A stretch of DNA of 64,000 nucleotides from Rhizobiales bacterium NRL2 (lineage in GTDB: Bacteria; Pseudomonadota; Alphaproteobacteria; Minwuiales; Minwuiaceae): contig CP016093.1 of the NCBI GenBank assembly GCA_001664005.1, positions 1,743,001-1,807,000 of the forward strand, given 5' to 3'. The notes beneath the pieces were generated by a model. It did no database searches. It was given only the letters and a program-made list of their open reading frames with translations, and was not told where the DNA came from. The translations under genes and the position numbers were made by a program. Below, one piece after another: positions 8,908 to 17,707 of the stretch. The stretch's first letter is position 1. Each line of letters starts with the position of its first letter.

Positions 8908-9933
8908 CTATTTCGCCTCGGGCGGGATCTGGTCCTCGGGCACGTCGAAGCCGGCTTCCTTGTAATAGCGGTAGGCGCCGATATGCAGCGGGATGTTGCT
9001 TTCGCGGAAGATGTTGTCCTTGTTGATGATCTTCATCCACTCGGCGGTGCCGTAGAGCTCCTCGATATTCTCCCAGAGCGTCCTGGTGATGTTGTAGACC
9101 GTCTCTTCGTCCATCCACTTGTGCGTGCCGAGCCCGACCCATGATTCGACGGTCTTCACAGCGGATTCGTTGACCTGGTTCTCGTAGACCTTGGGCGGAA
9201 TCTCGGAGATCGTGCGGCCCGGAGGGGCAAGGGCGGCCTGCAGAGAAGGCTTGTCCCAGGCGTCGTCCGGCACGCCGAGAATGCGGATCTTCGACACCAG
9301 CGCGAACTGCTGGATGGACGGACTTGGCACCGTAGTCGGACCGATATAGACGTCCATCTGGCGGTCGAGGAAGGCCGTTTCGGCGGACTGCCAGTCATAG
9401 CGCATGACCTCGAAATCCTCACCGGGCACGAGGTCGGTCGCCGCCTCCATGATCTGGGTCGCGATCTTGGTCGCCGCGCCGGCGGGCGGGCCCAGGAAGA
9501 CCTTCTTGCCCTTGAAGTCGTTGAGCGACTTGATGCCGGAATCCTCGTAGACGACGATATGATACGGGCCGAGCGGATAGTTCAGGATATTGCGCAGGTT
9601 GCTGTTCAGCTCCGGCGCATTCTCGACCTTGGCGAACATCGCCGTCTTGGTCTGCATGAACTGGTTGATCGATGGCGCCGTGAGGAACAGGTCGACCTTC
9701 TGCTGCGACGCGTCCACCGCCGACTTGGTGGCCGGCTTGCCCACCGACACCTGAATTTCGATCGGCAGGTGCTTCTGCACGATCTGGGTGAAGGCGATGC
9801 TGAACTGTCCCGGCGTCGATCCTGCCGGGAAGCTGTCCATCGTGATGAACTTCTTGTCCTGGGCCTGGGCGCCGCTCAGCGCCAGGGCCGTGGTCATGAC
9901 CGCCGCAGCGGCAAGGAATGTCCGTCGCTTCAT
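8908..9933 (-). CDS. TAXI-family TRAP transporter solute-binding protein
   Basis: A periplasmic binding protein of 341 residues. It has a typical signal peptide (MKRRTFLAAAAVMTTALALS, cleavage after AQA) and the TAXI fold. It delivers a small carboxylate-type solute to the fused TRAP permease encoded just upstream (43-bp gap). I chose the ATG at 9933, preceded by GGGAGG, over a longer frame. Ligand unknown. A strong terminator follows. Confidence 0.88.
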   Translation of the reverse strand: MKRRTFLAAAAVMTTALALSGAQAQDKKFITMDSFPAGSTPGQFSIAFTQIVQKHLPIEIQVSVGKPATKSAVDASQQKVDLFLTAPSINQFMQTKTAMFAKVENAPELNSNLRNILNYPLGPYHIVVYEDSGIKSLNDFKGKKVFLGPPAGAATKIATQIMEAATDLVPGEDFEVMRYDWQSAETAFLDRQMDVYIGPTTVPSPSIQQFALVSKIRILGVPDDAWDKPSLQAALAPPGRTISEIPPKVYENQVNESAVKTVESWVGLGTHKWMDEETVYNITRTLWENIEELYGTAEWMKIINKDNIFRESNIPLHIGAYRYYKEAGFDVPEDQIPPEAK

Positions 9934-9976
9934 TCTTTGGGTTCCTCCCTGTTGAAGACGGTTGGTCGTGCGGGGG

Positions 9977-11959
9977 TCAGTCGTCGCCGCCCCCCTGCTG
10001 GGCGGCCAGCCGCCGGCGCACGGCAAAGGTCTCGGCGGCGATGAGAACGGCCCCGAGCGCAATGCCGGCGAACTGGAGTTGGGTGTAGTCGACGATCAGC
10101 AGGAAGCCGGCCGCCAGCCGGGCGGCGCGCGCCCAGAGGGGCAGCCGGTCGATCTCGCAGCCGATCAGCGCCGTCGAGAGCAGCCATATGGCGAACAACA
10201 GCCGCGCCATGACCCAGATGAAGGCGACCGGATCGAACTCCACCACTACCAGCAGGATCGTCGGTTCGTAGATGAATACGAACGGAATGATGAAGCCCAC
10301 CAGCGAGAGTTTCAGCGCGTCGATCCCGGTTCTGACCGGTTCGGCGTCGGCAATTGGCGCGGCGGCCACGGCGGCGAGCGCCACTGGTGGCGTTACTGCG
10401 GACAGGACGCCGAAGTAGAACACGAACAGGTGGATCGAGAGGTCCGGCACGCCCAGCTTCTTCATCGCCAGGCCGAGCACCAGGACGATGATCAGATAGG
10501 CCGGAAGTGTCGGCATGCCCATGCCGAGGATCAGGCACGACCCGGCCGCCAGCAGCAGCGCGATGAACAGCGACTGGTCGCCCAGCAGCGCCACCTGGGT
10601 GGCGAACTTGAGCCCCAGGCCGGTCAGGTTGAAGACACCGATCAGGACGCCGATGGTGCCGACCGCCATCATGATCCGCGCGCCGGCGACGCCGCCCTTG
10701 GCGAGCGCGGTCAGCAGCCGCGCCGGATCGCGCCGGAGCGCGGCGTTGAGCACGAAGCCGGCCACGATGGTTGCGACCACGGCCCAGAAACCGGCCATCG
10801 ACGGCGAGCGGCCGGCCGCGAGCGTGCCGATGATCGCGCCGATGGGTATGAAGAACATCAACGACTTCAGCCAGTCGTTGGCGGTGATCTTCAGCCGTTC
10901 GGCCTTGGGCGTCGGCTTCAGGCCGAGGCGGCGGGCCTCCAGACCGACCGAGACGAACAGGTTGCCGTAGTACAGCAGCGCCGGAATCAGTGCGGCGATG
11001 CAGATGGTCTGATAGGGGACGCCGGCCAGACTGACCATCAGGAAGGCGGCGGCGCCCATCACCGGCGGCATGATCTGGCCGCCTGTCGAGGCGGCGGCCT
11101 CCACCGCGCCGGCGAAGGATCCCTTGAAGCCGCGGCGCTTGATCAGCGGTATGGTGACCACGCCCGTGCCGACGACGTTCGCCACCACCGAACCCGACGA
11201 CATGCCGAAGATGGAGGAGGCGATGATTGCGGAGTGCGCAGGCCCGCCGCGCGTGCCCGCGGTCGCGGCCAGCGCCATTCTGATCATGACGTTGCCCGCG
11301 CCGGTGCCCTCCAACAGGGCGCCGAAGACGATGAAGATGAAGATCAGCAGCACGACGATGCCCACGGGATCGCCGAAGATGCCCTGCACGCCGAACCAGA
11401 TGATCTCCATGGTCAGTTCCAGGCTGAAGCCCGAATGGCGGAATATCCAGGGCAGGTCCTGGCCGAACAGGCAGTAGAGCAGGGTGATCAGCCCGACGCT
11501 GGCCAGCACGATGCCGAAGGCGCGGCGGGTCAGTTCCAGCAGGGTCAGCACCGCAAGCAGCGCCGTCGCCTGATCGAAGGCCGAGAAGGAAACGACGAGA
11601 TTCTCAATGTCGTCGATCTTGTCGAGGAAGTTCCAGCACGCGAAGCCCAGATTGGCGAGCAGCACGAGGTCCACGGCCCAGAGCAGGATCACCATTGGCG
11701 CCGCCGTGACCTTCAGGTTGGCCGCCAGCGGCGAGGTGAAGACGACGATGGCGGCGCAGATGAACAGGGCGCCGGCCCGGATCAGTTCCGGACTGACATA
11801 CTGACCGACAAAGGCGACGTAGATCGCGTGAACGGCGATCAGCGCCGCCAGCGTCAGGCCGACGAACCGGAAAGCTCGGGAGATCGGGTCGGCCGGCGGC
11901 GGGATCGCCCCGTCGTCAGGCAACGGCTGATCGGGCTCCAGGTCGGAACGTGTGCTCAT
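9977..11959 (-). CDS. TRAP transporter fused permease (DctQM type, TAXI class)
   Basis: A polytopic inner-membrane protein of 660 residues that fuses the small and large TRAP membrane subunits. The large-subunit signature includes EGTGAGNVMIRMALAATAG, HSAIIASSIFGMSSGS and GGQIMPPVMGAAAFLM. It would drive Na+ or H+ coupled uptake with the adjacent TAXI protein. The start at 11959 has GAGG six bases upstream. The TauD-like gene stops seven bases before it, so all three form an operon. Confidence 0.92.
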   Translation of the reverse strand: MSTRSDLEPDQPLPDDGAIPPPADPISRAFRFVGLTLAALIAVHAIYVAFVGQYVSPELIRAGALFICAAIVVFTSPLAANLKVTAAPMVILLWAVDLVLLANLGFACWNFLDKIDDIENLVVSFSAFDQATALLAVLTLLELTRRAFGIVLASVGLITLLYCLFGQDLPWIFRHSGFSLELTMEIIWFGVQGIFGDPVGIVVLLIFIFIVFGALLEGTGAGNVMIRMALAATAGTRGGPAHSAIIASSIFGMSSGSVVANVVGTGVVTIPLIKRRGFKGSFAGAVEAAASTGGQIMPPVMGAAAFLMVSLAGVPYQTICIAALIPALLYYGNLFVSVGLEARRLGLKPTPKAERLKITANDWLKSLMFFIPIGAIIGTLAAGRSPSMAGFWAVVATIVAGFVLNAALRRDPARLLTALAKGGVAGARIMMAVGTIGVLIGVFNLTGLGLKFATQVALLGDQSLFIALLLAAGSCLILGMGMPTLPAYLIIVLVLGLAMKKLGVPDLSIHLFVFYFGVLSAVTPPVALAAVAAAPIADAEPVRTGIDALKLSLVGFIIPFVFIYEPTILLVVVEFDPVAFIWVMARLLFAIWLLSTALIGCEIDRLPLWARAARLAAGFLLIVDYTQLQFAGIALGAVLIAAETFAVRRRLAAQQGGGDD

Positions 11960-11966
11960 TTTCGCC

Positions 11967-12812
11967 TCAGAAAGGACGGTCGCCGTTGACGGTGACGCGG
12001 TGCATCTCGCGGGTGGCGTCGCCATAGTCGGCGATGGCGTAGTGCTGGGTGCAGCGGTTGTCCCAGAAGGCGACCGAGCCTTTCCGCCAGCGGAAGCGGC
12101 AGGTGAACTCCGGCTTCTTCAGATGGTCGAACAGGTAGTCGAGGATCGCCCGGGATTCCTTGCTGGAGACGCCGGCGATCTTTTGGGTGAAGATCGAATT
12201 GACGTAGAGCGCCTTGCGTCCGGTCACCGGATGGGTGCGGACGATGGGGTGCTCGACGCCGCCTTCCGACATGCGGCCGGCCTTGATTTCGGCCTGCTCT
12301 TCCTTCGAAAGGTTGTCATAGGCCTTCTCGAAGCTGGCCCGGCCGGCGGTGTTCAGGGCCTTCATTCCCTCGAGGTAGCGCTTCATCGGCGCCGACAGTG
12401 TCTCGTAGGCGTCGTACATGTTGGCCCACATCGTGTCGCCGCCGGTCTCCGGGACCTCCCGCGCCAGCAGGATCGAGCCCAGCGGCGGTTCTTCCTGGAA
12501 GGTCACGTCCGAATGCCAGGCGTTAGCCGCGCTGCGATTGGCCTTTGACGACTTCAGGATCAGCACCTCCGGATGGTCGGGATGGCTCGGCGCATAGGGG
12601 TGCACGTGCAGTGTTCCGAACTGGCGCGCGAAGGCGACATGGTCGCCCGGCGTGATGTCCTGATCGCGGAAGAAGATGACCTGATGCGCCATCAGCGCGT
12701 CATGCACCTCCTTGAAGGCCTGGTTGCCGAGCGGCTTCGACATGTCGATGCCCTCGATCTCGGCGCCGAGCGCGCCGGCGATCGGCTTCACGTCGATAAG
12801 GTCGTAGGTCAC
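11967..12812 (-). CDS. TauD/TfdA-family Fe(II)/2-oxoglutarate dioxygenase
   Basis: A 281-residue non-haem iron dioxygenase. The facial triad is visible as H100 and D102 (AWHSDVTF) and H257 (TQHYAIADYG), with the 2-oxoglutarate-binding R272 (REMHRVTV). Relatives hydroxylate taurine, alkylsulfates, phenoxyacetates and similar compounds, releasing succinate and CO2. The linked TRAP transporter suggests it acts on an imported substrate. It follows the TetR gene by 16 bases. The precise substrate cannot be assigned; calling it TauD proper would be too strong. Confidence 0.88.
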   Translation of the reverse strand: MTYDLIDVKPIAGALGAEIEGIDMSKPLGNQAFKEVHDALMAHQVIFFRDQDITPGDHVAFARQFGTLHVHPYAPSHPDHPEVLILKSSKANRSAANAWHSDVTFQEEPPLGSILLAREVPETGGDTMWANMYDAYETLSAPMKRYLEGMKALNTAGRASFEKAYDNLSKEEQAEIKAGRMSEGGVEHPIVRTHPVTGRKALYVNSIFTQKIAGVSSKESRAILDYLFDHLKKPEFTCRFRWRKGSVAFWDNRCTQHYAIADYGDATREMHRVTVNGDRPF

Positions 12813-12828
12813 GATGTCTCCTCCCCAA

Positions 12829-13524
12829 TTACGCAGCGGCCGTTCGTCTGGCGGCTTCCTTCTTCTGCAGCGATTCGAGCGTCTCCTCGCTCACCGGCGC
12901 GGACACCGCGCCGACCCAGATGTCGACCAGGTTGTTGATGGCCTGGTCCAGATCGAGATCGCGTCCCGCCGCCTGCTGCCGCTGGCGGGTCGCGTGAATA
13001 TCGGCGATGGCGTAGCTGCCGGCGTGCATGATCAGCGGCAGGCGCTGGCGCAGGATCGCGGCCGGCATCTCGCCCAGGTTCTTCTCGATCATGCGGAAGG
13101 CGCGGCCGACGCCATGGTTCAGGCGGCCCTCGACCATCTTCGCGATATCGAAATCGGGCGTCAGGAACATCTCGGTGAGGAAACGGACGTAGTTGGCGCC
13201 CTCTTCCTCATGGGCCATGACTTCCGCCAGCGGCCAGACGATTGTCTCGGCAATGGCGCGCAGATCGTCCGTGCGGCCCTCGGCTTCGATGCGGTCGAGC
13301 ATCTCCATCCGGCGCTTCTCGATCGCGCGCATGCGCTTGTCGAAGATCGCGTCGATCAGCCCTTCGCGGGAGCCGAAATGGTAATGCAGGGCAGAGGCGT
13401 TGCGCTGGCCGGCGGCGCGCACGATCTCGCGCAGGGAAACCCCGTTGATTCCCCGTTGGCCGAACAGCTTCTCCGCTGTCAGCAGCAATCGTTCGCGGGT
13501 GTCCAACCGTCCGCTCCCCGTCAT
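12829..13524 (-). CDS. TetR-family transcriptional regulator
   Basis: A 231-residue regulator with an N-terminal TetR helix-turn-helix (LLLTAEKLFGQRGINGVSLREIVRAAGQRNASALHYHFGSREGLIDAIF, split here only as a description of residues 14-62) and a helical ligand-binding domain. It is the first gene of the leftward dioxygenase/TRAP operon and is divergent from the acyl-CoA dehydrogenase operon, with 151 bp between. This is the usual position for a local repressor controlling both directions. The inducer is probably a pathway intermediate, possibly an acyl-CoA (inference). Confidence 0.9.
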   Translation of the reverse strand: MTGSGRLDTRERLLLTAEKLFGQRGINGVSLREIVRAAGQRNASALHYHFGSREGLIDAIFDKRMRAIEKRRMEMLDRIEAEGRTDDLRAIAETIVWPLAEVMAHEEEGANYVRFLTEMFLTPDFDIAKMVEGRLNHGVGRAFRMIEKNLGEMPAAILRQRLPLIMHAGSYAIADIHATRQRQQAAGRDLDLDQAINNLVDIWVGAVSAPVSEETLESLQKKEAARRTAAA

Positions 13525-13675: not shown

Positions 13676-14920
13676 ATGGATTTCGAAGCCGATGCCATGA
13701 CGCAGGAAATCGCTGACCGGGTGGAGACGATCTTCCGCGCCGAGATCCTGCCGCGACGGGCCGACTATGACCGTGCCGTCGACGTCGACGGTGACCTGGA
13801 GCCCGAGTTCCTGAAGGCCCTCAAGCGCCGCGCCTTCGCGGAGGGGCTGTGGAACATGGCGCTGCCGCGGCTGGCGGATGACGAGCCGGGCACGCGGCTC
13901 ACCAACCTGCAGTTCGCGCCCATCGCCGAGATACTGGGGCGCGTCGGCTGGGCGTCGGAGGTCTTCAACTGTCACGCACCCGACGTGCCCAACATGGAGA
14001 TCCTGCAGATGTTCGCCACGCCCGAGCAGAAGGCGCGCTACCTGGCGCCGCTCCTGCTTGGCGAGACGCGCTCCTCCTTCGCCATGACCGAGCCGGACGT
14101 GGCGTCTTCGGACGCCAACAACATCGCCACACGGATCGAGCGCCGCGGCGACCGTTATGTCGTCAACGGCCGCAAGTGGTTCGCCACCGGCGCGGCCAAT
14201 CCGAAGTGCAGCTTCCTGATCGTCGTCGGCGTCACCGATCCGGGCGCGCCGCGGGGGCGCACGCACTCCATGGTGTTGGTGCCCAAGGATGCGCCAGGCG
14301 TCACTGTGGTCCGCAAGATTCCGGTGATGAACCATGTCGAGCACGTCACCCCGCACACGGAACTGCTGCTGGCAGACGTCGAGGTGCCCGTCGAGAACCG
14401 CCTGGGCGATGAGGGGGCGGGCTTCCTGATCGGCCAGGCGCGGCTGGGCCCGGCCCGCGTGCACCACTGCATGCGCGCCATCGGCCGCTGCGAGGTGCTG
14501 ATCCGCCTGATGGTGGAGCGCGCGGCGAGCCGCCGGACCTTCGGCACGGACCTGCGGGACTACAGTTCCGTGCAGGACGCCATTGCCGACTCGCGTCTCG
14601 CTCTGGAGCAGGCCCGCCTGCTGGTACAGCGCACCGCCTGGCGGCTCGACCGGGAAGGCAACAAGCTGGCGCGCAAGGATATCTCGCTCATCAAGATCGC
14701 CGTTGCCCGCGCTTATCACGACATCTGCCAGCGCGGCATCCAGATCTTCGGGGCCATGGGCCTGACCGACGAGACGCCCTTCGCCGAGTCGCTCTCCCAG
14801 GCGCGGGCCTTCCGCATCTATGACGGTCCCGACGAAGTGCACCTGCGCACCGTCTTCCGCCTTGAAGAGAAGGAGGGGGATGGGCTCAACTGTTCGAAGG
14901 ACTACCTGGGGAGGGCCTGA
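13676..14920 (+). CDS. Acyl-CoA dehydrogenase (ACAD10/11-like)
   Basis: An FAD enzyme of 414 residues that introduces an alpha,beta double bond into an acyl-CoA. Features include FAMTEPDVASSDANN near residue 138 and NGRKWFATGA near 163 (FAD binding), RRTFGTDLRDY in the helical C-terminal domain and the terminal YDGPDEVHLRTVFRLE segment with the likely catalytic glutamate. A strong ribosome binding site precedes the ATG. The alcohol dehydrogenase starts one base after its stop, so the genes are coupled. Confidence 0.92.
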   Translation: MDFEADAMTQEIADRVETIFRAEILPRRADYDRAVDVDGDLEPEFLKALKRRAFAEGLWNMALPRLADDEPGTRLTNLQFAPIAEILGRVGWASEVFNCHAPDVPNMEILQMFATPEQKARYLAPLLLGETRSSFAMTEPDVASSDANNIATRIERRGDRYVVNGRKWFATGAANPKCSFLIVVGVTDPGAPRGRTHSMVLVPKDAPGVTVVRKIPVMNHVEHVTPHTELLLADVEVPVENRLGDEGAGFLIGQARLGPARVHHCMRAIGRCEVLIRLMVERAASRRTFGTDLRDYSSVQDAIADSRLALEQARLLVQRTAWRLDREGNKLARKDISLIKIAVARAYHDICQRGIQIFGAMGLTDETPFAESLSQARAFRIYDGPDEVHLRTVFRLEEKEGDGLNCSKDYLGRA

Positions 14921-14921
14921 G

Positions 14922-15974
14922 ATGAAGGCGCAGCAGATCATCGAGTGGGGCGAGCCCCTGCAGGAGCGGGACTACGAGACCCCGGAGCCGCAGGGCGGCG
15001 AGATCCTGATCCGGATCACCGCCTGCGGCGTCTGCCACAGCGACCTTCACCTCCACGAGGGCGGCTTCAACATGGGGCAGGGCAATTTCGCACGCCTCGC
15101 CGACATGGGCGTCGAACTGCCCATGACCATGGGCCACGAGATCGGCGGCGTGGTCGAGGCGGTCGGTCCCGACGTCGAGGGCGTGGAAGTCGGCAAATCG
15201 TACGTCGTCTATCCCTGGATCGGCTGCGGCGACTGCGAACATTGCCGGAAGGGCCGCGATATCGATTGCCTGACGACGCGGCCGCTGGGTACGCGCCGCG
15301 ACGGCGGCTACGCCAGCCACGTGATCTGTCCCGACAAGCGCTACCTTTTCGATCATGGCGACGCGCCGATCGACCTTGCCTGCACCTACGCCTGCTCGGG
15401 GCTGACCGCCTACAGCGCGCTGAAGAAGCTCGACTACCTGACCGAGAACGATCATCTCGTGATCATCGGGGCGGGCGGTGTCGGCCTTTCGGGCGTGATG
15501 CTGGCGAAGCACGTGACGAAGGCGAAGGTGATCGTCGCCGACACCGACCCGGAAAAGCGCTCTGTCGCGCGCCAGGCCGGGGCCTTCGACACCTTCGACA
15601 ACGGCCAGCCGGACGCGGCGGAAAAGCTGAAAGCGAAATGCGGCGGTGGCCTGCGCGGCGTCATCGACTTCGTCGGCCGTCCGGAGACCGCCGGCTTCGG
15701 CCTCGACTGCCTCGGCAAGACCGGCAAGCTGGTTCTGGTCGGGCTCTATGGCGAGGCCCTGCCGCTGGCGCTGCCGCGCATGCCGATCTTCCAGCTCACC
15801 GTCCAGGGCTCCTATGTCGGCGACCTGCAGGACATGACGGAACTGATGGAATTGGTCCGGGCGGGCAAGGTGCCGCCGATCCCGGTGAAGCCACGGCCAC
15901 TGGCCGAGGCCAACCAGGCGCTGCAGGATCTGATCGACGGCCGGGTGAGCGGGCGGCAGGTCCTGAAGCCATGA
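14922..15974 (+). CDS. Zinc-dependent alcohol dehydrogenase (MDR family)
   Basis: A cytoplasmic NAD(P)-dependent dehydrogenase of 350 residues. Catalytic zinc ligands lie in CGVCHSDLHLH and GHEIGG, structural zinc is bound by CGDCEHCRKGRDIDC, and the Rossmann motif is IGAGGVGLSG. It probably oxidises an alcohol intermediate of the same pathway. I chose the ATG at 14922, directly after the acyl-CoA dehydrogenase stop, over a longer overlapping frame. Its stop overlaps the next start as ATGA. Confidence 0.92.
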   Translation: MKAQQIIEWGEPLQERDYETPEPQGGEILIRITACGVCHSDLHLHEGGFNMGQGNFARLADMGVELPMTMGHEIGGVVEAVGPDVEGVEVGKSYVVYPWIGCGDCEHCRKGRDIDCLTTRPLGTRRDGGYASHVICPDKRYLFDHGDAPIDLACTYACSGLTAYSALKKLDYLTENDHLVIIGAGGVGLSGVMLAKHVTKAKVIVADTDPEKRSVARQAGAFDTFDNGQPDAAEKLKAKCGGGLRGVIDFVGRPETAGFGLDCLGKTGKLVLVGLYGEALPLALPRMPIFQLTVQGSYVGDLQDMTELMELVRAGKVPPIPVKPRPLAEANQALQDLIDGRVSGRQVLKP

Positions 15975-16957
15975 CAGGGCGCGCCTTCGACGGGCGGGTG
16001 CTGGAGGCCACGATCGATCCCGAGCAACTGCCGCTGATGCCGGACGTCTCGGGCAACGCGATCAATGGCCTCGGCGAGAGCGAGATGCGGCAGCCGACGC
16101 CGATCTACTGGCACAATCCGCGCGAACTCGCCTGGGGCGCGCTTCAGAGCTGGATGCTGAAGAAGACCGCCGATGAGGTCCCCGAGACCCGGGCGCTGGA
16201 CCACAATCTGGGCGGCCGCGGCGCGAAGGAGCGCGCGCCGCTCGCCGACGAGCCGGTCAGGAAATCCGCCGAGGAATTCACCGAGGCCGCGAAAGCCTTC
16301 GCCCTGGCGCACGAAGCTGACCAGGCGGGCGTCGCGCGGCTGCGGACGGAGTGGTTCTTCGAAGGCATGGAGGAGGACCTGCCCTGGATCGTCGTCATGG
16401 CGGTGCGCATGGACCATGCGGATCTTGCCGCGGCGCCCGATCCGCCCTCGATCATCGAGGTCATGCGCCAGTACAATCGCGGCACCCGCGCCGCCCGGGC
16501 GCTGGCGGACTGGATCCGGGGGCAGGGCTACCGGGCCGAGCCTCATGGCGGCCCGACGGCGGGACCGTTGACGCTGATTCCGCCCGCGATCGCCGCGGGC
16601 TTCGGCGAACTGGGCAAGCACGGCTCCATCATCAACCGCGAGTTCGGCGCCTCGTTCCGGCTCGCCGGCGTGCTGACCGACATGCCGCTGGTCGCGGACA
16701 GTCCCGACAGCTTCGGCGTCGACGACTTCTGCATGAACTGCCGGATCTGCGAGCAGGCCTGCCCGCCGGACGCCATCGCGCCCGCCAAGCAGACGGTGCG
16801 CGGCGTCGAAAAGTGGTATGTCGATTTCGACCGCTGCGTGCCCTACTTCAACCAGACCTATGGCTGCGGCATCTGCATCGCCGTCTGCCCCTGGAGCCGG
16901 CCGGAGGTCGGACCGAAGCTGCTGCAGAAGATGCTCCGGCGGCTTCAGCGGGCGTAG
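15971..16957 (+). CDS. Reductive dehalogenase-like corrinoid/iron-sulfur protein
   Basis: A 328-residue protein with two C-terminal [4Fe-4S] motifs: C254, C257, C260, C264 (CMNCRICEQACP) and C289, C299, C302, C306 (GCGICIAVCPWSRP). The preceding segment GFGELGKHGSIINREFGASF near 211-229 and LAGVLTDMPL resemble the corrinoid-binding core of reductive dehalogenases (RdhA). The second motif differs from the epoxyqueuosine reductase QueG, which has a much longer first spacing. There is no Tat signal and no fused reductase domain, so it should be cytoplasmic and need an external electron donor. ATGA overlap couples it to the alcohol dehydrogenase. Dehalogenation itself is not proven; another corrinoid-dependent reduction is possible. 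Confidence 0.75.
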   Translation: MTGRAFDGRVLEATIDPEQLPLMPDVSGNAINGLGESEMRQPTPIYWHNPRELAWGALQSWMLKKTADEVPETRALDHNLGGRGAKERAPLADEPVRKSAEEFTEAAKAFALAHEADQAGVARLRTEWFFEGMEEDLPWIVVMAVRMDHADLAAAPDPPSIIEVMRQYNRGTRAARALADWIRGQGYRAEPHGGPTAGPLTLIPPAIAAGFGELGKHGSIINREFGASFRLAGVLTDMPLVADSPDSFGVDDFCMNCRICEQACPPDAIAPAKQTVRGVEKWYVDFDRCVPYFNQTYGCGICIAVCPWSRPEVGPKLLQKMLRRLQRA

Positions 16958-17062: not shown

Positions 17063-17707
17063 TCAAGCTGCGTCCGGCTGGTTCCCCGGCGCGGCGTCGG
17101 CGAAGGCGGGGATTTCCTGGCACGCCGCATCGATCCGCAGCACCGTCGGGTAGGCGGAGAGATCGAGGTCGAAGCGCCGGGCGAAGAAAACCTGCGGCGC
17201 CAGGCAGATGTCGGCCAGGCTGGGCTGGTCTCCGTGGCAGAAGCGACCGGTCGCCGGTTCGGCAGACAGCCGCGCCTCCAGCCCTTCCAGACCCACATGG
17301 CACCAGTGGGCGAGCCATTTCATGCGGCCCTCCTTGCCCGCGCCCAGATCGTTCTCGACGAAGTTGAGGACTCTGAGATTGTTCAGCGGGTGGATGTCGG
17401 CGGCGATGGCCAGCGCCAGCCCCTGGACCCGCGCCCGGCCGGCCGGGTCTGCGGGCAGCACCGGCGGCTCGGGATGGAGGTCGTCGAGGTAGTCGATGAT
17501 CGCCAGCGACTGGTAGATGCGTTGTCCGTCGTGTTCGAGCACGGGCACGAGGCCCGCGGGGCTGACCGAGCGGAACTCGGGATTGGCCTGCTCGCCGCGG
17601 AACAGGTTCACGTAGGACCGTTCCGCCTGAACCCCCTTCAGGTTCATGGCGATGCGGACCCGGTAGGCCGCCGAGGAGCGGAAATAGTCGTAGAGATGCA
17701 GGCTCAT
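17063..17707 (-). CDS. maiA: Maleylacetoacetate isomerase (zeta-class GST)
   Basis: A 214-residue glutathione-S-transferase-fold enzyme that isomerises maleylacetoacetate to fumarylacetoacetate in tyrosine/homogentisate degradation. YFRSSAAYRVRIAMNLKG at 8-25 holds the catalytic serine region, and the thioredoxin-fold to helical transition (YQSLAIIDYLD) and C-terminal SLADICLAPQVF are standard. The other pathway genes (hppD, hmgA, fah) lie about 25 kb to the right. Here the gene overlaps a PhyH dioxygenase stop by four bases (ATGA). Confidence 0.88.
   Translation of the reverse strand: MSLHLYDYFRSSAAYRVRIAMNLKGVQAERSYVNLFRGEQANPEFRSVSPAGLVPVLEHDGQRIYQSLAIIDYLDDLHPEPPVLPADPAGRARVQGLALAIAADIHPLNNLRVLNFVENDLGAGKEGRMKWLAHWCHVGLEGLEARLSAEPATGRFCHGDQPSLADICLAPQVFFARRFDLDLSAYPTVLRIDAACQEIPAFADAAPGNQPDAA

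Follow-up and report, generated by a model that had tools for sequence, protein, structure and literature searches.

What does a protein of only 328 residues do with the hallmarks of a reductive dehalogenase (RDase), a vitamin B12 enzyme that strips halogens from organic molecules? The gene that raises this question lies in a 64,000-nucleotide stretch (the window) of the genome of Rhizobiales bacterium NRL2, a bacterium of marine type. An initial annotation, made from the DNA letters, had described an open reading frame that combines both ferredoxin-type cluster motifs with the GELGKHG and TDMPL core of RdhA proteins. We confirmed this reading frame at 15971–16957 on the plus strand, along with its length of 328 residues and each of the motifs (TDMPL at residues 236–240). 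The features on which the analysis rests are listed here, with G004 denoting the genome of the nearest relative.

13676–14920, plus strand: acyl-CoA dehydrogenase, upstream of the alcohol dehydrogenase (ORF list, domain search)
14922–15974, plus strand: medium-chain zinc alcohol dehydrogenase, whose stop (TGA) overlaps the RDase ATG
15971–16957, plus strand: compact RDase-like protein of 328 residues, P0001 (ORF and translation, HMM, PDB, model)
16019–16438, plus strand: codons 17–156, strongly diverged from G004 (nucleotide identity, dS, profile)
16052–16069, plus strand: family motif GNAING, residues 28–33, in the N-terminal segment (conservation in 83 rows)
16472–16474, plus strand: Y168, aligned with PceA Tyr246 and the NpRdhA catalytic Tyr (Tyr in 83/83 rows)
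16550–16552, plus strand: G194, aligned with PceA Asn272 and the QueG catalytic Asp130 (Gly in 83/83 rows)
16604–16624, plus strand: GELGKHG motif, residues 212–218 (sequence and alignments)
16658–16660, plus strand: R230, aligned with PceA Arg305 and NpRdhA Lys488 (Arg in 83/83 rows)
16730–16762, plus strand: first cluster motif CxxCxxCxxxC, with C254, C257, C260 and C264 (sequence; Pfam Fer4_7 above cut-off)
16835–16888, plus strand: second cluster motif, C289 followed by CxxCxxxC, with C289, C299, C302 and C306 (sequence, alignments)

In full, the cluster motifs read CxxCxxCxxxCP at C254–C264 and C289 plus CxxCxxxCP at C299–C306. The claim that the protein has neither a Tat signal nor a membrane anchor gene stands: there is no RR among its first 45 residues, hydrophobic 19-mers peak at a mean Kyte–Doolittle value of 1.07 over the whole protein, and no candidate ORF for an RdhB-type anchor lies between the gene and the opposite-strand GST gene at 17063. 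The 328 residues hold a single B12 core, with no vestigial duplication and no fused reductase (PDOR) domain. In noting the missing reductase domain, the initial annotation had contrasted the protein with NpRdhA-type enzymes; the domain is indeed missing, but NpRdhA itself also lacks one, and it is the BhbA/JtRdhA-type enzymes that carry it (PMC10463259, in part).

Several lines of evidence, namely the fold, the Tyr–Arg pair, the cluster cysteines, the tree, a separate QueG elsewhere in the genome and the presence of CobN, support placing this protein on the RDase side. The compact, soluble corrinoid and iron–sulfur reductase that the initial annotation envisaged is thus also what structure, tree, active-site residues and the separate QueG lead us to predict. 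More specifically, we think it moderately probable that it is a cytoplasmic, single-domain class III cobalamin enzyme that takes electrons from a separate donor to dehalogenate small organohalides.

First, the proposed comparisons of RdhA with QueG, by profile and by structure, both favoured the RDases. The protein scored 112.4 bits (E = 3.7e-32) against TIGR02486, the NCBIfam RDH model, which is nonetheless under the curated cut-off of 160.35, and 110 bits in the search of its own genome, compared with 55.7 bits (E = 3.8e-15) against the NCBIfam QueG model. The best matches in a sequence search of the PDB were RDases (E = 2e-26 to 7e-25; QueG, 8e-9). An AlphaFold2 model built from 73 aligned sequences had a mean pLDDT of 95.2 and a pTM of 0.92, and Foldseek ranked 36 RDase chains at the top with QueG next. 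In VIA-align superpositions, RDases reached Z scores of 26.8–28.4 over 271–292 aligned residues within the range 34–328 (best, 8q4h_A: Z 28.4, rmsd 3.2, 292 residues), whereas QueG reached 15.0–15.6 over 192–194 residues within 99–315. Because residues 34–98 superpose on RDases and have no match in QueG, the N-terminal segment is itself RDase-like. As modelled, the protein is a putative corrinoid-binding core with two [4Fe-4S] motifs in an RDase fold. The same superpositions bear on the idea that it handles corrinoids, as a decyanase or chaperone resembling CblC/CblD, or carries electrons without a substrate of its own. CblC/CblD structures do have part of the fold in common, but at Z scores of only 6–9 and over 117–164 of the 328 residues; set against an RDase match that is nearly full-length and backed by conservation of the catalytic residues and the cluster cysteines, this makes a handling role very improbable.

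Second, the protein can be told apart from QueG, the tRNA-modifying enzyme with which it shares the class III cobalamin core and the GKH motif. The DYH motif, the VDTxPVxE stretch and the C-terminal part past the clusters, all features of QueG, are absent, and Gly occupies the position of the catalytic Asp. The genome encodes a separate QueG of 377 residues (C1:3059259), and the family is missing from most genomes of the class. The initial annotation had named a best structural match to QueG, with its catalytic aspartate, as grounds for abandoning its proposal; since DYH is lacking, the Asp is replaced by Gly, QueG is encoded elsewhere and the structure is RDase-like, we find the opposite. With the longer RDase fold match and the separation in the tree described below, we reject identity with QueG, and give next to no weight to the reading as this or another tRNA-modifying enzyme, despite a common B12 and iron–sulfur core, seen in the QueG scores above.

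Third, phylogenetic analysis groups the protein with RDases. In trees with QueG as outgroup and 27 family rows chosen from 83, plus two added later, RDases and the family split from QueG at 100/100. The family branch had support of 86/94 in the first tree (100/100 counting QueG alone against the family), and with one long row removed the family formed one group at 97/94 against all other rows. By these sequence trees, it is a monophyletic family of single-domain proteins of around 330 residues. The first tree also suggested that the family is sister to all other RDases, a placement that we dropped: once the long Dehalococcoides row was taken out, support for uniting the other RDases was only 84/58, and the AU test did not reject a tree that joins the family to two other small RDases, L111 and L106 (p = 0.61). 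These two, ORFs of 322 and 343 residues from G033 and G015, form a separate small RDase-like clade with the motif GELGKHGSLI and a different N terminus, which we did not recognize in the literature on RDases examined.

The family is widespread. A scan of genome contigs gave 164 pattern matches, of which 154 encode a relative, so that a single genome collection contains the family at no fewer than 154 sites. The best 80 of these 154 loci, which we kept, contain 82 homologous ORFs, mostly full-length and 45–71% identical to the window protein, and the median length over 83 rows, with starts trimmed by our choice, is 328 residues. By their record titles, the carriers are mostly alpha- and gammaproteobacteria, largely in the form of metagenome bins; a few are labelled Bacteroidia, Saprospiraceae, Myxococcota, Acidimicrobiia or actinobacterium, for which mis-binning is possible. 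Cultured carriers include Luminiphilus syltensis NOR5-1B and Pseudomaricurvus alkylphenolicus. The gene occurs in the window genome and all six other genomes of the genus, in one of two further genomes of the same family rank (E < 1e-100) and in 16 of 241 genomes of a class sample (E = 1e-60), several with two or three copies. Two loci hold two copies close together on opposite strands, L016 (7941–8942 and 8948–9922) and L031 (7968–8960 and 4195–5277), which are 56–57% and 46–51% identical to the window protein, respectively. In a plasmid collection, none of 43 matching records covered 80% of the query, and the 40 listed were known RDases, QueG or unannotated stretches over 34–46% of it; in a phage collection, none of 14 did, and the five listed were QueG-like or unannotated. 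In the open-licence PMC literature we recognized no paper on this family of around 330 residues and no biochemical evidence for it.

Fourth, the residues expected of an RDase active site are conserved, with two departures. Y168, R230, G194 and F293 are invariant across the 83 family rows, and the cluster cysteines are conserved in 82–83 of them (the exceptions being one row with X and one with G); in the GNAING motif, N29 is kept in 81 and N32 in 82 of the 83. A profile alignment places Y168 at PceA Tyr246, R230 at PceA Arg305 and NpRdhA Lys488, G194 at PceA Asn272, and F293, which lies within the second cluster motif stretch, at NpRdhA Arg552. The placement of R230 in the Lys488 column is confirmed by the NpRdhA K488Q chain in the alignment. 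In a multiple alignment, the R230 column is Phe in all five QueG rows, and the QueG Tyr opposite Y168 is not that of the DYH motif; the multiple alignment is therefore unsure in that helix, and we relied on the alignment to PceA. By alignment, then, the family has the active-site pair of the RDase superfamily, a Tyr with an Arg or Lys. At the position of NpRdhA Arg552, a residue with a role in substrate binding, this family has Phe. With this invariant Phe and the invariant Gly at the Asn272 position, the pocket is unlike that of the characterized enzymes, and such changes argue for what may be a different substrate. In PceA, Tyr246 and Arg305 have been implicated in proton transfer; in QueG, Tyr101 falls within the DYH motif, Asp130 takes the position of Asn272, and an equivalent of Arg305 is absent (PMC4646009, in part).

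These departures also lend themselves to another explanation, in which the same redox chain serves a class III cobalamin reductase that cleaves a non-halogen bond (an epoxide, aryl ether, hydroxyl or other) of an ordinary catabolic metabolite. QueG shows that the chain can do other chemistry (PMC4646009, in part), and G194 and F293 set the active site apart from those of RDases, but the Tyr–Arg pair of RDases is invariant and the superposition on them takes in nearly the full length, N-terminal segment included. We consider this explanation unlikely, yet a serious contender.

Comparison with known systems places the family among, but not within, the described types of RDase. It resembles NpRdhA, BhbA and JtRdhA in being cytoplasmic and without Tat signal, in its predicted corrinoid and two-[4Fe-4S] core, in its Tyr plus Lys/Arg pair and in its aerobic hosts, and it shares with NpRdhA the lack of a fused reductase. 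It differs in size, at 328 residues compared with 704–1,071 (the solved NpRdhA chain in the PDB has 704). In catabolic RDases the B12 core is duplicated in vestigial form and a PDOR domain may be present as well (PMC10463259, in part), both of which are missing here, and plasmid-borne catabolic RDases are 31–35% identical to the window protein over the core only. The published classification comprises four domain layouts (PMC10463259, in part), and the family cannot be assigned to any of these subfamilies. The same source describes NpRdhA as driven by the non-cognate pair of spinach ferredoxin and Escherichia coli flavodoxin reductase, and all catabolic RDases characterized as of 2023 as specific for ortho-halogenated phenols.

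Respiratory PceA of the Sulfurospirillum and Desulfitobacterium types has a similar fold (Z 28) and the Tyr246/Arg305 pair, but its chains are of 435–503 residues and its Tat signal and anchor are missing here. T7RdhA from Acidimicrobiaceae TMED77, reported as a corrinoid iron–sulfur protein, has adjacent Lys258 and His259 near a cluster, reminiscent of K216 and H217 here, although it is longer, with residues to at least 343; this comparison is with its published description (PMC10008544, in part). Parallels in design are Ros_A3X954 from a Roseobacter and a related Pararhodobacter enzyme, both cytosolic and without Tat signal. Ros_A3X954 debrominates 2,6-dibromophenol, and the position of its cluster motifs, residues 283–345, corresponds to a single domain in length as far as the clusters (PMC13101508, in part). 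Such debromination by Tat-less cytosolic relatives supports the RDase-side reading (PMC13101508, in part), and with these two enzymes in print, a minimal cytoplasmic RDase is as such not new; what is new is this clade with its uncharacterized substrate. By motif spacing, Ros_A3X954 probably belongs to another clade: its cluster motifs are 54 residues apart, compared with 45 here, and rows of 408–421 residues that share its spacing fall with PceA in the tree.

The gene neighbourhood offers little guidance on function. The translational coupling to the alcohol dehydrogenase described by the initial annotation is real, an ATGA overlap at 15971–15974, and G004 keeps the alcohol dehydrogenase, acyl-CoA dehydrogenase and GST neighbours. 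The coupling is restricted, however, to these two of the seven genus genomes and so says little about function, and the proposed catabolic operon was not borne out as a meaningful link. No such dehydrogenase lies beside the gene in the other five genus genomes (3.7–4 kb each, around 1.5-kb flanks), nor within 3 kb in any of the best 80 loci. The upstream gene in L003 and L006 is instead a class I/II aminotransferase by Pfam scan, which rules out the same alcohol dehydrogenase in L003, and aminotransferases also lie upstream in L005 and L019 (by clustering) and L004 (by BLAST). In L003, L005 and L019, the RDase start overlaps the aminotransferase stop by four bases, as it does with the unrelated alcohol dehydrogenase in the window. 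A dedicated partnership with the overlapping enzyme, for instance to dehalogenate and oxidize a haloalcohol, would account for the overlap, the shared strand with both dehydrogenases and the retention in G004, but given the different upstream gene in other genus members we regard it as quite improbable. Beyond these genes, the window holds a TAXI/TRAP transporter, a TauD-family dioxygenase (340 bits, above the NCBIfam taurine dioxygenase cut-off of 313) and a TetR regulator at 8908–13524, adjoining the acyl-CoA and alcohol dehydrogenase genes.

Across the 80 loci, gene calling recovered 74 of the 80 target genes; 430 ORFs were called among the three genes on each side, neighbour ORFs were clustered and 60 were chosen for Pfam scanning. 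The commonest partner recurring across lineages was a CoA ligase (6 of 80 loci, Pfam-confirmed in two of the six), and other neighbours included 3-hydroxyacyl-CoA dehydrogenase, P450, aldehyde dehydrogenase and FAD monooxygenase, as well as the housekeeping genes for RNase R, DNA polymerase III and pyruvate carboxylase. Among the scanned ORFs there was neither a common dehalogenation pathway nor a recurrent ferredoxin partner. An aromatic amino acid theme was considered and dropped, as each gene was confined to one lineage or a few (Trp/Tyr permease at two loci, kynureninase and an indolepyruvate-type oxidoreductase at one each, aminotransferases mainly in the window genus). General catabolic neighbours of this kind, the CoA ligase and, in one lineage or a few, the aminotransferase, kynureninase, permease, monooxygenase and P450, would also suit a reductase acting on non-halogen bonds. 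We conclude that the RDase-like gene is accessory and tied to no fixed pathway, its link to the alcohol dehydrogenase being local.

Fifth, the cofactor appears to be available. The window genome encodes the cobaltochelatase CobN (1,646 bits, above cut-off) and can therefore probably make corrinoid. CobN is above cut-off in 11 of the 16 carrier genomes, compared with 87 of 241 in the whole class sample, but the enrichment is weak, with a Fisher p of 0.006 by genome and 0.13 by genus (the latter count using matches at E = 0.001). All five carriers without CobN have a B12-dependent MetH above cut-off and a TonB-B12-like receptor with a score under cut-off, so that corrinoid salvage is possible in them.

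Finally, the gene appears to be a mosaic. Over an alignment of around 19.7 kb to G004, most 200-base bins are 90–99% identical, whereas identity drops to 67% in the first half of the RDase gene: the segment at 16019–16438 has 67% nucleotide identity to G004 (L118) between flanks of around 96%. Codons 17–156 have a dS of 0.98 and a dN of 0.31, compared with 0.30 and 0.05 for codons 157–328 and 0.17 and 0.004 for the adjacent alcohol dehydrogenase. We discarded diversifying selection as the source of the divergence from G004, since dS is elevated along with dN and the import of a diverged allele is the better fit; judged from these sequences, recombination in one lineage probably brought in the segment. 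Family-wide, too, variability is higher in the first half (around 44–59% versus 64–81% identity, 12 homologues), which may shape substrate choice. A second, smaller island of divergence lies at 9000–9400 of the window (77–79% identity to G004, where the genomes are otherwise around 96% identical), inside a gene for an NMT1/TAXI-type binding protein (ORF 8908–10062, minus strand).

Returning to dehalogenation of small organohalides as the preferred reading, a mechanism can be sketched in which we infer corrinoid binding, a halide as the leaving group and the nature of the donor. A soluble donor of the ferredoxin or flavodoxin type, separate from the enzyme, would supply two electrons in single steps, and the two [4Fe-4S] clusters would relay them to a corrinoid in its base-off form. 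Its Co(I)/Co(II) centre would then remove the leaving group, most likely the halide of a small natural organohalide, with a proton given by Y168, which R230 would hold. Aerobic heterotrophs would use this catabolic step for scavenging or detoxification rather than for respiration. Against this reading stand the sub-cut-off RDH score, the altered pocket, the lack of a common neighbour pathway and the weak CobN enrichment.

The carriers are mostly bacteria with aerobic-type metabolism. A broader and more doubtful proposal, which we put forward tentatively, is that they share a widespread, undescribed class III branch whose substrates extend beyond ortho-halophenols and chloroethenes and are possibly not halogenated at all, with the variable pocket half swapped between alleles by recombination and specificity changing as a result. 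Should the family not dehalogenate, it would add a further chemistry to those of B12 with iron–sulfur clusters. If it does dehalogenate, a small soluble enzyme of around 330 residues would take part in marine halogen turnover, and its size would make it convenient for studies of mechanism and for engineering.
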